Positions 30,930 to 45,336 of a stretch of DNA of 45,336 nucleotides are shown here, piece after piece; the stretch's first letter is position 1, and each line of letters begins with the position of its first letter. The stretch is from a virus: IMG/VR virus record IMGVR_UViG_3300031952_000033, positions 1 through 45,336 of that record; one strand, written 5' to 3'. The translations under genes and the position numbers were made by a program. Below the pieces are notes generated by a model. The model searched no databases. It had not been told where the DNA came from and saw only the letters and a list, made by a program, of their open reading frames with translations.

Positions 30930-31129
30930 ATTTTCATATCCAAATCAAGTTTATCTTCTATTTTAGACCAATTTGGAACTATATAGTCTAATACAGCTTT
31001 TATAATCTTAACCATTTCGGTCCTATCACTAAATGAACCAATAGAAGTATATTTTTCTAAATCCCTACATACTTCTATAAGTTTCCAAATCTTATCTAGT
31101 TTATCAAGTTCTAATCTTATATCATTCAT
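30926..31129 (-). CDS. Small helical protein
   Basis: This 67-residue protein is acidic and helical, with a heptad-like Leu pattern (LELDKLDKIWKLIEV). It overlaps both neighbours by four bases (ATGA). It may be a dimeric partner of the DNA methyltransferase or the SANT-like protein. Unknown function. Confidence 0.5.
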   Translation of the reverse strand: MNDIRLELDKLDKIWKLIEVCRDLEKYTSIGSFSDRTEMVKIIKAVLDYIVPNWSKIEDKLDLDMKI

Positions 31130-32088
31130 TCTAGTACATCCCTAATATGCTTTAGTAGATATGTAGCGAACCTTATATCTACTCCACTTGCTATCATACG
31201 GCTTTTCTCTTGTACATTCTTATCCGGAAATCTATAGCTTAGTGGGAATCCCATTATAAGCTGTAGTTCCGGTGTAGAGAAAAAGCGTTCTCCTTTCTCC
31301 CTCTGGTATATTTGGTTATGAGTAGAAAACTTAACTAAGGTAAAAGATATACTCTTACCGGTTAAAGTTCTTTTAGCTTTTCTTTCTGGTGTAGCCAATA
31401 GACTAAAGGGACCGGCTCTAGGTTTACCGTCTGTTCTAAGTAGGCTCATAAGCATTCTAGTATCTGGTTTATAGTTATCTACATCATACTTTCTAGAGAC
31501 TTCCTCAGGTACTACATCACTAATACTTAGTGCCGGTTGCATATTTAAGGTACATAGTGGTGATTCTATATTACCTAAATCCCTTCTCCTACCAAATACA
31601 TATAGCCTATTCCTATGCTGTGCCGAACCATATTCTGCTGCATCCATTACAGCATAGTCATAGTTATAATCTGGTCTAAGAATATCACAATACTCTTGGA
31701 ATAGTGGCTTACCTTTAGTAAGTATTTCTGGTACCATTTCCATTAAAAAGTGTTTAGGACTAACTTCTATAGCTACAGCCTCAGCAAAATTAAGAGTATG
31801 TTTATTACAAGGATGATCTAACCTACTAATAGGGCTAGCCTTACTAAAACCTATACACGGTGGACTACCAACCATAAGGTCTATATCATTACTAGCTGCT
31901 ATAGGCTTACTAATCATTACATTAGGAAAGTTCATCATTAGAAGCGTACGTGATACTTTGTCTTGCTCCATCCTAAGACAAGGGTCCAAAGTAACATCTG
32001 GTTGGTAATGGCTTAGTACCGGAATACCGGCGTTCAGTAAAGCTTGGGTCCAATGACCGTAGGTTGCATAAAAGACTATAGCTCTCAA
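31126..32088 (-). CDS. C5-cytosine DNA methyltransferase
   Basis: The 320-residue enzyme transfers methyl from SAM to C5 of cytosine. Motif IV is GSPPCIGFSKA with the catalytic Cys, motif VI LMEMVPEIL, motif VIII QHRNRLYVFGRR, and the C-terminal motif X ASGVDIRFATYLL. Motif I is unusual: FYATYGHW in place of the FxGxG loop. Residues about 180-260 form a short target-recognition region. It starts at a TTG under its own TATA box. No partner restriction enzyme is adjacent, so it is an orphan methyltransferase for self-protection or regulation. Confidence 0.85.
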   Translation of the reverse strand: MRAIVFYATYGHWTQALLNAGIPVLSHYQPDVTLDPCLRMEQDKVSRTLLMMNFPNVMISKPIAASNDIDLMVGSPPCIGFSKASPISRLDHPCNKHTLNFAEAVAIEVSPKHFLMEMVPEILTKGKPLFQEYCDILRPDYNYDYAVMDAAEYGSAQHRNRLYVFGRRRDLGNIESPLCTLNMQPALSISDVVPEEVSRKYDVDNYKPDTRMLMSLLRTDGKPRAGPFSLLATPERKAKRTLTGKSISFTLVKFSTHNQIYQREKGERFFSTPELQLIMGFPLSYRFPDKNVQEKSRMIASGVDIRFATYLLKHIRDVLE

Positions 32089-39523: not shown

Positions 39524-39673
39524 TTACTTATGCTCCTTCATTTCTATTTCCTTTTCTTCTAGGGCCCACTCAATAAGAGTAGTTAGGTCTATTAAAGATT
39601 CCGGTGTAATGCAGTGTTTAAGGAAGTATTCATGTACATTAGCCTTTAGTTCTTTAGACCATTTATTAGTCAT
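39524..39673 (-). CDS. Small helical protein after the topoisomerase-like gene
   Basis: The 49-residue protein reads MTNKWSKELKANVHEYFL and ends in a charged amphipathic helix (LIEWALEEKEIEMKEHK). It overlaps the end of the topoisomerase-like gene by eight bases. It is a short ORF in an otherwise open 142-base gap. It may be a small cofactor. Confidence 0.5.
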   Translation of the reverse strand: MTNKWSKELKANVHEYFLKHCITPESLIDLTTLIEWALEEKEIEMKEHK

Positions 39674-41288
39674 CTAGGCCCTCCCTTAGTCTCGGATCTT
39701 CTCTAAACCTTTCTAGTAAAGCTTCTCTAATCTTCTGGATGTCCTTTTCTTTAGCACCTATCCGCTTCTCTATAAGGTCATATCCATTAGGATTATAGTT
39801 CTCTTCATTATGGATAGGTTCAAACTTAGTATCTAGGATAGGTTCTGGTCCTTCATAGCCTTCCTTAGCACTAACTAAAGCCTCTTCAAACTCATCTAGG
39901 TTCCAGTTGGTTTCTATTTCAAACTGCTTCTTTATCTTATGTGCTATTGCTGCTAAGTCGTAACTAGCCCTCTTAGGGTCCTCTTCAAACTGCTTCCATA
40001 TATGGTACTTTATTTCTTTAGCACCAATCTCATCTAGAGCTCTTTCATAGGCCGGTAGCATATCCTCATAGATGTCCTTCTTAAGCTGCTCCTTTAGTTC
40101 TGTAAGCCAATGGTAGTAATCCCAAAAGAACTTAGGATAGGCTATTTTCTCATCTATCTCTCTCTTTAGTTCTTCCCTAGCAGCTTCATCAAATTCTGCC
40201 TTAAGCTTCTTATCATCCGGCATTGGCGGCTTAACCGGTATTCCAAATAGTCTCATATATTCTACTAGATAAATACCTAAGCCTATAGGTTCACCTTTAT
40301 TATTCTCAAACCCGGCTGATAGGCTTTCTAGTTCATAAGTCTTATCTCTACCCCAAGCATCATAGTCCAATTGGTTTAGTAAGCCATGGCTCATTAGAAA
40401 GTTTATTCTTTGCTGTACAAAGGGATTCTGTAGTGGCCTCTTTTGTTCTACATCATTAGCTAGTCCTAAGTTCTCTCCAATACTAGGATAGAATCCAGCT
40501 AGATATATCTTAGGATATTTCTTTGGTGGGAACTTATAAGCTAGGTGTCTACTTGCTTCCGTTCCAGCTTGAATAGTCCTTAGCATGTCTACTCCATAGG
40601 CATCTGCATCTGCTAGGAAGATCATATTTTTCTGGTCCTTAAACCTACTAGCCAGTTCCCATATTGCTCTGCTAAAGTTACCTCCCACAGTAACTATTAT
40701 GCTATTAGTAAATTCTGATAGGCCAAGCTCTACAATTCTGTTAGCCGCTGCATTCTTCTCTACTACTATGATGTTCTCACAAGCTCCACATTGCCATTCT
40801 TCCTCTTTCTCCGGCTTCATAATAGTTCTAGCTACTACTTCAGTAAAGGCTATTTTTCTTTCCTTATGTCCAAATACCGGTGAATGGAAGTAATATAAGA
40901 ATCCTTTACTTAAGTTCCCTATAGTGAAGGTATCCCGGTTAATATCACATAGTATTTCTAGGTCATTAATCGCTCCTAGTACATTAGGATAGATGTTATC
41001 TGGATTAGCTGTATTAAAAGGCTTAACTAGTTCTGGTGTAGTCCTTACTGTGTAGTAAAATTCTCTAAGTTCTCTTGGTGCCTTACCGCTTAGTATAGCC
41101 GCTGATATAGCCCTCTGAACCATTAAGGCCTCATACTTGATCTTAGCTTCTTTTTCTAGTAGAACAAAGCCAGTATCATCACTATAGAATTCTACATCTT
41201 TACCATTTACCTTTTGAGTCTCAGCTAGTTTTTTACTAATGAATTCTTTTCTTTTATCAGTATTCTTTATTTCAAATATCTTTACCAT
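39666..41288 (-). CDS. Topo VI-A/Spo11-like protein ('Mini-A') with long C-terminal extension
   Basis: The 540-residue protein has the winged-helix catalytic motif RELREFYYTVR with Tyr78/Tyr79, and a Toprim domain: IVVEKNAA with Glu177 and FLADADAYGVDM with Asp227 and Asp229, then GENLGL as in Topo VI-A. Canonical A subunits have 350-390 residues; here a charged, Trp- and Glu-rich extension of about 200 residues follows. A CGAC (167-170) precedes Toprim. No B subunit (GHKL ATPase) is in the window, so this fits the Mini-A group, which may cut DNA without ATP-driven strand passage. Replication initiation, recombination or host DNA breakage are possible. Confidence 0.82.
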   Translation of the reverse strand: MVKIFEIKNTDKRKEFISKKLAETQKVNGKDVEFYSDDTGFVLLEKEAKIKYEALMVQRAISAAILSGKAPRELREFYYTVRTTPELVKPFNTANPDNIYPNVLGAINDLEILCDINRDTFTIGNLSKGFLYYFHSPVFGHKERKIAFTEVVARTIMKPEKEEEWQCGACENIIVVEKNAAANRIVELGLSEFTNSIIVTVGGNFSRAIWELASRFKDQKNMIFLADADAYGVDMLRTIQAGTEASRHLAYKFPPKKYPKIYLAGFYPSIGENLGLANDVEQKRPLQNPFVQQRINFLMSHGLLNQLDYDAWGRDKTYELESLSAGFENNKGEPIGLGIYLVEYMRLFGIPVKPPMPDDKKLKAEFDEAAREELKREIDEKIAYPKFFWDYYHWLTELKEQLKKDIYEDMLPAYERALDEIGAKEIKYHIWKQFEEDPKRASYDLAAIAHKIKKQFEIETNWNLDEFEEALVSAKEGYEGPEPILDTKFEPIHNEENYNPNGYDLIEKRIGAKEKDIQKIREALLERFREDPRLREGLDD

Positions 41289-42847: not shown

Positions 42848-43582
42848 TCACCTACTACTATTAATCCAGTTCTGCCTATAAAGGTTTCTATTTATCTGTT
42901 CTACATCTATACAGCGCCATGGTACAACTGTATGTATACCAAGCACCATTTCCTTTATAGCTTCTTGGCAAGTGATAGCTAAGGTCTCATCCATCCAAGC
43001 TCTATCAACCTTACTTTTAACTAGCTTCTGATAGTACCGGTACTTTTCTTCAATACTTTCTTTTCCTTTATCTAGGTAAGTTAAGGCCGATGTTGCTATT
43101 GAATTACTCCGGTTTATTCCAGCAGCACACTTCACACAGACTTTAGCTCCCTTTTCTAGTAAGTAAACTACTTCTTCAATCTTGTCTCTGACCGGCTGTA
43201 TAAAGATTTCATTATCTTCAATGCCTTGCCATACTTCCACTACTTCCCATCCGGCATCAACCTTATCATGCCAACCACCTGTGGCTAAGTTACTAGTAAT
43301 CTTATTCATTCCATATTTGAAGAACTTTACCTTAGTACCGGCTATTGGCATCCAGAAGCCGGTTTCTTTAGTATTACCTATAGAATCCATATAAGCTAGT
43401 ACATCCAATTCTATATGTGGATAAGCTTTATAGAGTGGCCTAAGATCATATACTTCAGTCTTTCCTTCTGCTAGGTTAGGAAGATATTTCTTAAAGTTTA
43501 TTTTCTTTATCATTCTAGCTTCCTTCTCTTTAGCCTTCTTAAGTGCTTTAAGTAGGCGCTTATTCTTAGTTCTGGTTTTCAT
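42848..43582 (-). CDS. Dual-specificity/tyrosine phosphatase-like protein
   Basis: The 244-residue protein has the phosphatase signature CVKCAAGINRSNSIA, with Cys152, Arg158 and Ser159 in the CX5RS form. Asp123, in GIEDNEIF, lies 29 residues upstream, the usual distance of the general acid. The N-terminal 30 residues are a basic coiled coil. It should remove phosphate from proteins or RNA 5' ends. Two kinase-like genes lie 200-950 bases upstream, so a phosphorylation switch is plausible. Confidence 0.78.
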   Translation of the reverse strand: MKTRTKNKRLLKALKKAKEKEARMIKKINFKKYLPNLAEGKTEVYDLRPLYKAYPHIELDVLAYMDSIGNTKETGFWMPIAGTKVKFFKYGMNKITSNLATGGWHDKVDAGWEVVEVWQGIEDNEIFIQPVRDKIEEVVYLLEKGAKVCVKCAAGINRSNSIATSALTYLDKGKESIEEKYRYYQKLVKSKVDRAWMDETLAITCQEAIKEMVLGIHTVVPWRCIDVEQINRNLYRQNWINSSR

Positions 43583-43583
43583 C

Positions 43584-43781
43584 TTATTCTACCTTCACTT
43601 TTCTGTTTATCATAAATTCAGTACATTCTACACATAGGCTTAGTTTCTTTAAGCCTTCTGGAACATCCTTCCAATCTTTACTCCACCAGCCAATATAAAT
43701 AGTATTACATAGATCACATATTGGCGGTAATAAATAACCTTCCTTAGTAAGAAGGCCTTTATACTTTTCTAAGTTTTCCAT
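43584..43781 (-). CDS. Small zinc-finger protein
   Basis: The 65-residue protein has CDLC (about 22-25) and CVEC (about 51-54) with an intervening Trp-rich hairpin (IGWWSKDW). It sits directly between the phosphatase-like gene and the kinase-like gene. It may help recognise a target. Unknown function. Confidence 0.5.
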   Translation of the reverse strand: MENLEKYKGLLTKEGYLLPPICDLCNTIYIGWWSKDWKDVPEGLKKLSLCVECTEFMINRKVKVE

Positions 43782-43782
43782 T

Positions 43783-44283
43783 CTACTTCACCAATATCCA
43801 TTCTTTTGAATTACCATATCCATAGTCTCTTATTACCATCCTTTCTCCATACATTCCAACATTACTATGACCAAAATCTTTATAGTAGATATTGTTTCTC
43901 ATTAGTTTGCCTTCAAAGCCAGCATAGTCATCCCATGCTACATCTGGACAATAAGGCATTACTAGCCAAGAATAATCTTCAGCATAAGCTAGTATAGGAA
44001 GTAAATACTTCTTAGCTTTAGAAGGACAACTTAGCCAGTTTTCTACTTCTTGCTGATTCTGGTTAAAGTCGTTATCTTCTTCATTTACTTCTAATTTCAC
44101 TACTATAGACTTATTTTTAGAAGCAAAGACATGCCTAGATAGGCCCATATCAATAAAGTCAAATCCATTAGCTTCTAGAATCTTAGCTAATTCTTCAGCC
44201 TTATCTACCCTACTTTTACAGCTATGAATTTCTGTAGTATTCTGGTTTAGTAGGCCTACTATATTCTTTACTTCCTTATTCAT
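43783..44283 (-). CDS. Diverged protein kinase-like protein
   Basis: The 166-residue protein has a small-lobe strand with Lys63 (SIVVKLEV), helix-C-type Glu79 (QQEVENW), a hinge (SWLVMPYC), a catalytic-loop-like DFGHSNVGMYG (Asp136, Asn141) and a metal-site RDYGYG (Asp153, DYG in place of DFG). It is shorter than normal kinases and lacks the substrate-binding lower helices. It is homologous to the gene at 44517-45260. Phosphate transfer is likely but unproven; a pseudokinase is possible. Confidence 0.6.
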   Translation of the reverse strand: MNKEVKNIVGLLNQNTTEIHSCKSRVDKAEELAKILEANGFDFIDMGLSRHVFASKNKSIVVKLEVNEEDNDFNQNQQEVENWLSCPSKAKKYLLPILAYAEDYSWLVMPYCPDVAWDDYAGFEGKLMRNNIYYKDFGHSNVGMYGERMVIRDYGYGNSKEWILVK

Positions 44284-44289
44284 CTTGAT

Positions 44290-44394
44290 CTAGACTCCTA
44301 AAGCTTCAGCTATTTCTATTTCAGTATATCCTTGATTCTTCATTAGGATAACTAAGAAATACTTAGCTTGACTTAAATCTTCTAAGTTCTCCAT
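44290..44394 (-). CDS. Mini HTH-like peptide
   Basis: The 34-residue gene starts MENLEDLSQAK and ends with LMKNQGYTEIEIAEALGV, a typical helix-turn-helix sequence. It stops 7 bases before the kinase-like ATG. It could be a minimal DNA-binding peptide or a remnant of a larger regulator. Confidence 0.45.
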   Translation of the reverse strand: MENLEDLSQAKYFLVILMKNQGYTEIEIAEALGV

Positions 44395-44398
44395 TTTA

Positions 44399-44494
44399 TT
44401 AGTCTCCTAGACTCCTTACATTCTCATAAGCTAGGTCCAACCAAGCTTGGATTTCTCCTAAGATTCTATAGGCTACTTCTTTTATAGTTTTCAT
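44399..44494 (-). CDS. Short helical peptide
   Basis: The 31-residue frame starts MKTIKEVAYRIL and is amphipathic throughout (GEIQAWLDLAYENV). It ends 4 bases before the HTH-like peptide, and two short genes fill the gap between the kinase-like genes. Evidence is limited to position and helix pattern. Confidence 0.35.
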   Translation of the reverse strand: MKTIKEVAYRILGEIQAWLDLAYENVRSLGD

Positions 44495-44516
44495 TTTCTT
44501 TCCACCTCTTAGTTTA

Positions 44517-45260
44517 TTAATCTTCTTCCTTATTGAAGTATATTGGGTAGCCGTAATCTATAACGACATCCCTTCCTTTATACATTCCCACATTAGCAGA
44601 ATAAAGGTCAGCCATATTTATTCCTAATTCAGCAAACTTAGTTCTTAGCCTATCTACTACTTCACTACAGTTTATTCCATCATTACTTGTCTCTGCTTTA
44701 GGCATTACTATCCAAAGATAGTCAGTTTTATCATAAGCTAGTATAGGTAAGAAACATTCTCTTATAGATTCTGACTGCTTCTGGATTACTTTAAAATGCT
44801 TTACTTCTTTACTATTCTGACCTCTATCCATTTCTCCATCACTCTGATTCCTTCCAGACTTATCTATCTTTATAACATAGTTTCCAGCTATCTCAAAAAC
44901 CATTCTATCTAGTCCATTATCTAAGTGCTTAGCAGCTAAGAAGCTTAGTTCAGCTTCTATTTCATTCTCAACATGCCAAAGCTTTCCTTCTTCCCTAGAA
45001 GCCAACTTAGTTAGTATTCTATTAATCTTCTTAGAATCTTCTGGACCTATAGGCGACTTCTTCTTTTCCTTAAGCTTTCTTCTATAGGCCTTATAGCAAG
45101 TCTTACATCCTTCCCAATAAGGCTTAACTTCTCCTTCCTTAATGAAGTATTCTGATCTTGGTAGGTTAGAATGGCATAATGGACATTGGATATTTTCCTT
45201 AGCTTCTACTACTATCCTTAAAGAATCTTCTAAACCAAAGAGTTCTTTTAGGCTAAGCAT
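44517..45260 (-). CDS. Diverged protein kinase-like protein with N-terminal zinc finger
   Basis: The 247-residue protein has a zinc knuckle (CPLC 26-29 and CKTC 52-55), then a kinase-like domain: YVIKID with Lys131, Glu152 in SKEVKHF, hinge LWIVMPKA (182-189), ADLYSANVGMY with Asp218 and Asn223, and IDYGY with Asp235. It is a paralogue of the 43783-44283 gene with an added zinc finger. It is the first gene after the main promoter at the right end, so it is probably expressed early and could phosphorylate a host or viral protein. Confidence 0.62.
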   Translation of the reverse strand: MLSLKELFGLEDSLRIVVEAKENIQCPLCHSNLPRSEYFIKEGEVKPYWEGCKTCYKAYRRKLKEKKKSPIGPEDSKKINRILTKLASREEGKLWHVENEIEAELSFLAAKHLDNGLDRMVFEIAGNYVIKIDKSGRNQSDGEMDRGQNSKEVKHFKVIQKQSESIRECFLPILAYDKTDYLWIVMPKAETSNDGINCSEVVDRLRTKFAELGINMADLYSANVGMYKGRDVVIDYGYPIYFNKEED

Positions 45261-45336
45261 CTTAAATCACAGTACATCTACCATCACTATTCTATTTAAG
45301 CCTTCCTTTTAACTTGTACTACTAGAATACAATTCC
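45261..45336 (-). promoter_or_regulatory. Leading promoter of the early gene block
   Basis: Minus-strand reading gives a purine BRE-like stretch (AAAAGGAAGGC, 45300-45310), a TATA box (CTTAAATAGA, 45291-45300) about 33-40 bases before the ATG at 45260, and no gene. This is the cleanest BRE-TATA pair in the window. The gap continues across the window ends into 1-351 if the map is circular. Confidence 0.6.
45313..45336. repeat. Terminal direct-repeat elements
   Basis: The last eight bases (45329-45336, ACAATTCC) are identical to bases 1-8. CTTGTACTAC at 45313-45322 is identical to 227-236. Both suggest that the two ends of the window belong to one continuous non-coding region. An eight-base match alone could be chance or an assembly overlap. 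Confidence 0.45.

Follow-up and report, generated by a model that had tools for sequence, protein, structure and literature searches.

The window, that is, the whole 45,336-base virus record analyzed here, encodes a tandem pair of proteins, KinA and KinB, whose kinase-like fold is confirmed at the level of sequence profiles and structure models and whose chains end shortly past the DYG motif. Both proteins belong to phrog_4301, which PHROGs lists as function unknown, and the more interesting result is this family itself: unnamed, widespread kinase-fold proteins that consist of little beyond the ATP-binding half. What is added here to phrog_4301 is its kinase fold, its truncated chain, the pair in archaeal viruses and a branch on haloarchaeal chromosomes. 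From sequence, models and analogy with characterized kinases, we favor, with a probability of roughly 0.45, the reading that KinA and KinB are nucleotide-binding minimal kinases that are completed by a partner and serve host takeover.

The original prediction placed two kinase-like genes and a phosphatase gene at the promoter-proximal end of an archaeal virus, and this arrangement stands. All three ORFs are present on the minus strand, as are almost all genes of the window, and KinB (positions 44,517–45,260, minus strand) is gene number one of the genome. The region upstream of it (45,261–45,336, minus strand) contains a candidate archaeal TATA-like box, TTAAATA, near position 45,299 and about 39 nt ahead of the KinB start, a match to the consensus only. 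KinB (247 aa) is composed of an N-terminal zinc-ribbon-like module and a kinase-fold domain devoid of a C-lobe (about residues 106–247), while KinA (43,783–44,283, minus strand, 166 aa) is a C-lobe-less kinase-fold protein. The two genes are separated by a gap of 233 nt (44,284–44,516, minus strand) with two very short ORFs of 31 and 34 aa, the second of which reads, by eye, like the start of a helix-turn-helix. KinA is followed after 1 nt by a small 65-aa protein with two CxxC pairs (43,584–43,781, minus strand) and the latter, again after 1 nt, by a dual-specificity-phosphatase-like (DSP-like) protein (42,848–43,582, minus strand, 244 aa). Given this spacing, the three genes from KinA to the phosphatase are probably expressed together.

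The best-covering matches of the window PolB come from the haloarchaeal tailed viruses HGTV-1 and HRTV-27, which, together with a Rad51/RadA gene, backs the assignment to an archaeal virus. An archaeal host also fits the presence of an ERCC4 nuclease gene and of a 540-aa topoisomerase VI-A/Spo11-type toprim protein (39,666–41,288, minus strand; PF21180, E = 8e-10), which may be related to the stand-alone TOP6A-like proteins of mobile elements. The window further encodes a C-5 cytosine DNA methylase (31,126–32,088, minus strand; PF00145, E = 2e-25) that possibly protects the viral DNA. The 8 bases at its start recur as its final 8 (ACAATTCC), an identity that may reflect a circular or permuted genome or be due to chance.

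Aligned over 131 columns, KinA and KinB are 33% identical (E = 3e-11), indicating that they are paralogs, as initially proposed, and both match the phrog_4301 HMM (E = 7e-14 and 1e-13), as do all 35 members scanned. The Lys, Glu, D-x4-N and DYG elements claimed for the pair are all present and in kinase order: KinA carries G47, R50, K63, N76, E79, D136-x4-N141 and D153-Y-G, and KinB carries G116, R119, K131, N149, E152, D218-x4-N223 and D235-Y-G. Among the 163 ORFs of the window, KinA and KinB alone fit a loose K/E/D-x4-N/D[FYL]G pattern. Of 20,000 proteins obtained by shuffling, 62 fit it as well, and none fits a stricter pattern of the family. The glycine-rich loop of the family has the form G-x-x-R, with the Arg at the position expected for the last Gly of GxGxxG, and reads GSGxxR in the proteins of the haloarchaeal virus HATV-2 and xxGxxR in KinA and KinB. 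YrbL (PF10707), a candidate identity because of its Arg-bearing glycine-rich loop, was rejected: 8 records searched gave nothing at E ≤ 1, whereas the positive control in Escherichia coli matched.

The profile search proposed with the original prediction leads to protein kinases. When compared with the PDB, the family profile best matches TTK (E = 4e-4 with 5 sequences and 5e-5 with 20 sequences), with the segment from the glycine-rich loop to the DFG in register; the profile built from 5 sequences also gives SteC at E = 0.02 and aminoglycoside phosphotransferases at E = 0.3–0.7. An AF2 model of KinA based on a 35-sequence alignment (pLDDT 84.3, pTM 0.79) has 85 Foldseek matches in the PDB below 1e-3, the best at E = 2e-5, and among the matches listed nearly all are protein kinases. 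The model is superimposed on TTK with a Z-score of 8.4, on PRPK/Bud32, a small archaeal-type kinase, with 8.2 and on HopBF1 with 7.2 over 122 residues, the last being level with many kinases; values near 8 are modest taken alone, and it is the agreement of sequence profile, Foldseek and motif register that argues for a kinase fold. VIA matches are kinases, and those in BFVD are viral kinases, the top ones being apparently the two HATV-2 proteins themselves as judged by length only. The NCBIfam model arch_bud32 gives E = 0.046 and 13.2 bits, far below its 125-bit cut-off, the Pfam kinase family (Pkinase, PF00069) is reached neither by KinA and KinB, which stay under its curated cut-off, nor by the individual members, except for the longer 121Q_308, which reaches it weakly, and in scans of the members no Pfam, NCBIfam or PADLOC model covers them (weak PADLOC matches, best LmuB at E = 0.0026 for KinB). 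The occurrence of the same unnamed family in archaeal and bacterial viruses and in salt-loving archaea argues that the kinase resemblance is real.

The two-lobed kinase structure that had been anticipated is found only in part: the N-lobe and the catalytic loop are modeled, whereas a complete C-lobe is missing. The chain ends 11 residues past the DYG in KinA and 10 in KinB, and a median of 1 residue past it in the phage members, so that the activation segment, the APE motif and helices αF to αI are absent. TTK/Mps1 and other eukaryotic protein kinases match the family from the glycine-rich loop to the DFG, while their part from the activation segment onward has no counterpart. In combining a kinase N-lobe with a depleted C-lobe, the pair may resemble the minimal effector kinases OspG, SteC and HopBF1, a structural likeness and not a demonstrated sequence relationship. 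The Salmonella effector SteC, however, keeps αF and αG, and its activity requires this region; the SteC fragments 210–375 and 200–377, which end 11–13 residues past D364, do not phosphorylate the substrate (PMC13395416). Since these fragments are cut at about the same place as KinA and KinB, stand-alone kinase activity of the window proteins is doubtful, and the inactivity of the fragments is, by analogy, the strongest argument against autonomous activity. On the other hand, the minimal kinase OspG is switched on by a bound partner (PMC13395416). The missing C-terminal half, taken together with the SteC and OspG data, leads us to prefer either a partner-completed enzyme or a pseudokinase.

As pseudokinases, KinA and KinB would keep the kinase fold, with or without bound nucleotide, and bind host proteins as a decoy, scaffold or inhibitor, with no phosphotransfer. 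Such a role, which we regard as a serious possibility though not the one we would expect, is consistent with the absence of the activation segment and of the substrate lobe, with the inactive SteC fragments and with the loss of the catalytic Asp or Asn in several relatives. The catalytic Asp is replaced by Glu or absent in many relatives, and the catalytic site is clearly lost in gp246 of Aeromonas phage PS1 and in several haloarchaeal genes. The remainder of the active site argues in the opposite direction. Among 78 non-redundant members, the β3 Lys, the αC Glu and the DYG Asp are each present in 77 and the Arg of the glycine-rich loop in all 78, the conservation of Lys and DYG in the IMG/VR set being partly built in by the search patterns; the haloarchaeal genes, freer of this bias because most were found by profile, keep the Lys in 26 and the DYG Asp in 27 of 27. 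Of the Lys and Asp residues to which the original prediction was tied, the Lys and the DYG Asp are therefore retained, but the catalytic-loop Asp often is not. Near invariance of Lys, Glu and DYG Asp among very divergent members goes beyond the need of a pure scaffold, and the full residue set, D-x4-N included, is kept in all four archaeal-virus proteins (KinA, KinB and both HATV-2 proteins). Moreover, the two catalytic-loop positions switch jointly in the phages, with 15 D/N loops, 25 E/S loops, none mixed and 3 with a shifted loop (raw counts, kinship ignored). Such a concerted change of D and N to E and S argues that selection has acted on the whole active site at once and suggests that the site exists in two functional forms, as opposed to decaying.

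KinA and KinB are phrog_4301 minimal kinase-fold proteins reduced to the N-lobe, αE, the catalytic loop and the DYG. In the partner-completed reading that we favor, their kinase cleft would hold ATP and a metal ion, and a partner would provide the substrate lobe that they lack; this could be a host target, the other protein of the pair or a second copy in a dimer. Once completed, they would modify a host protein, in a manner resembling the partner activation of OspG. We put the odds that KinA and KinB perform some transfer reaction at about even. KinB could, in addition, be steered to a target bound to nucleic acid by its zinc module, which has two CxxC pairs (C26, C29, C52 and C55) and resembles the zinc ribbons found in HNH/endonuclease VII proteins of phages (E about 1e-3). 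Of the zinc finger put forward as a targeting module, the zinc-ribbon-like cysteine pairs are thus confirmed, whereas targeting, and a direction toward nucleic acid, is only a hint drawn from this resemblance.

Supply of the missing part by a sister protein is compatible with the recurrence of pairs. At least two copies are found in the window virus, in HATV-2, in phage PS1 (a tandem pair and a third copy) and in 121Q (two, unlinked). In a tree with long branches, KinA joins KinB (97/88) and gp073 of HATV-2 joins gp074 (97/60); grouping within each virus makes separate duplications likelier than one ancestral pair, and tandem duplication probably occurred more than once. In the tandem pair gp246/gp245 of PS1, the catalytic loop of gp246 is degenerate and the other is intact, so a pseudokinase-kinase pair is possible there. 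These recurrent pairs are compatible with heteromers.

The nearest named relative of the window pair is the tandem pair gp074 and gp073 of HATV-2, the two viruses having in common only PolB and the kinase-like pair (blastp, E 1e-3). The HATV-2 pair is followed by a small Zn-ribbon gene similar in size to that of the 65-aa CxxC protein, with no sequence match between the two products. A second branch occurs in bacteriophages, with proteins of mostly 110–125 residues (75 records and 54 IMG/VR loci), and a third on haloarchaeal plasmids and chromosomes, in 29 of 391 genomes. The haloarchaeal chromosomal members ('FDELKPENVG...VDYG') adjoin, at 10 loci, a gene that by eye is universal-stress-protein-like. 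Single-protein queries with KinA, KinB and the terminase against viral contigs retrieved no relatives, nor did KinA match phages by tblastn. In the phages, conserved neighbors of the family genes are limited to shadow ORFs of the gene itself, and the neighborhoods contain no conserved gene that is metabolic or names a target. Literature searches on viral minimal kinases turned up no description of a phrog_4301-type family, and none of a virus-encoded protein kinase in archaeal viruses. Extending the partner-completed reading to the family, half-kinases of 110–250 residues would transfer phosphoryl or nucleotidyl groups once completed and would be used against hosts by archaeal and bacterial viruses alike, a generalization that we consider tentative and, on balance, unlikely.

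The original prediction went further and proposed that the kinase-like pair and the phosphatase together act as a phosphorylation switch on transcription, replication or defense of the host; such a reversible system is a special case of the partner-completed kinase and needs a kinase activity that is itself only putative. The 1-nt spacing that runs from KinA through the small CxxC protein to the phosphatase is in keeping with such a switch, as is the phosphatase P-loop (C152-AAGIN-R158-S), of the C-x5-R-S type common to dual-specificity phosphatases. The position and P-loop of the phosphatase-like protein are therefore as announced, but its domain is matched only partially: comparison with Pfam DSPc (PF00782) gives E = 3.4e-5 and 24.1 bits, below the 33.5-bit cut-off, over 52 aligned profile positions, less than half of the domain, and the single-sequence structure model, with a pLDDT of 41, is too low to use. 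DSPs are on record for the haloarchaeal virus HGTV-1 and for the genus Mincapvirus (PMC8651126). However, a tblastn search of phages and a pattern search of genome contigs both leave the phosphatase without relatives, and a DSP-like domain is found in just 3 of the 18 viruses that carry the family and is absent from the second pair-bearing archaeal virus, HATV-2, which leaves a conserved kinase-phosphatase module unsupported. Despite the tight cluster, we thus judge the switch improbable; a local partnership is possible in the window virus, in which the clustered phosphatase might undo the action of KinA and KinB. A different nucleotidyl or phosphoryl transfer in the same cleft, for instance of AMP or onto a small molecule as in aminoglycoside phosphotransferases, would account for the unusual glycine-rich loop with its invariant Arg, for the Glu/Ser catalytic loop of many relatives and for the weak aminoglycoside phosphotransferase matches, but is very unlikely, as the best profile and structure matches are protein kinases and the phages show no conserved metabolic neighbors.

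If KinA and KinB are active, phrog_4301 would reveal how small a part of the kinase fold suffices for catalysis, and archaeal viruses would gain a phosphorylation route to rewire host proteins; should partner-completed transfer hold, the shortest proteins of the family would rank with the smallest known kinases. If they are inactive, the family would represent a large unnamed group of viral pseudokinases, and the proteins that these target would indicate which host processes are worth blocking. In both cases, phrog_4301 acquires a testable function, and in cultured systems, such as HATV-2 and Escherichia phage JS10.
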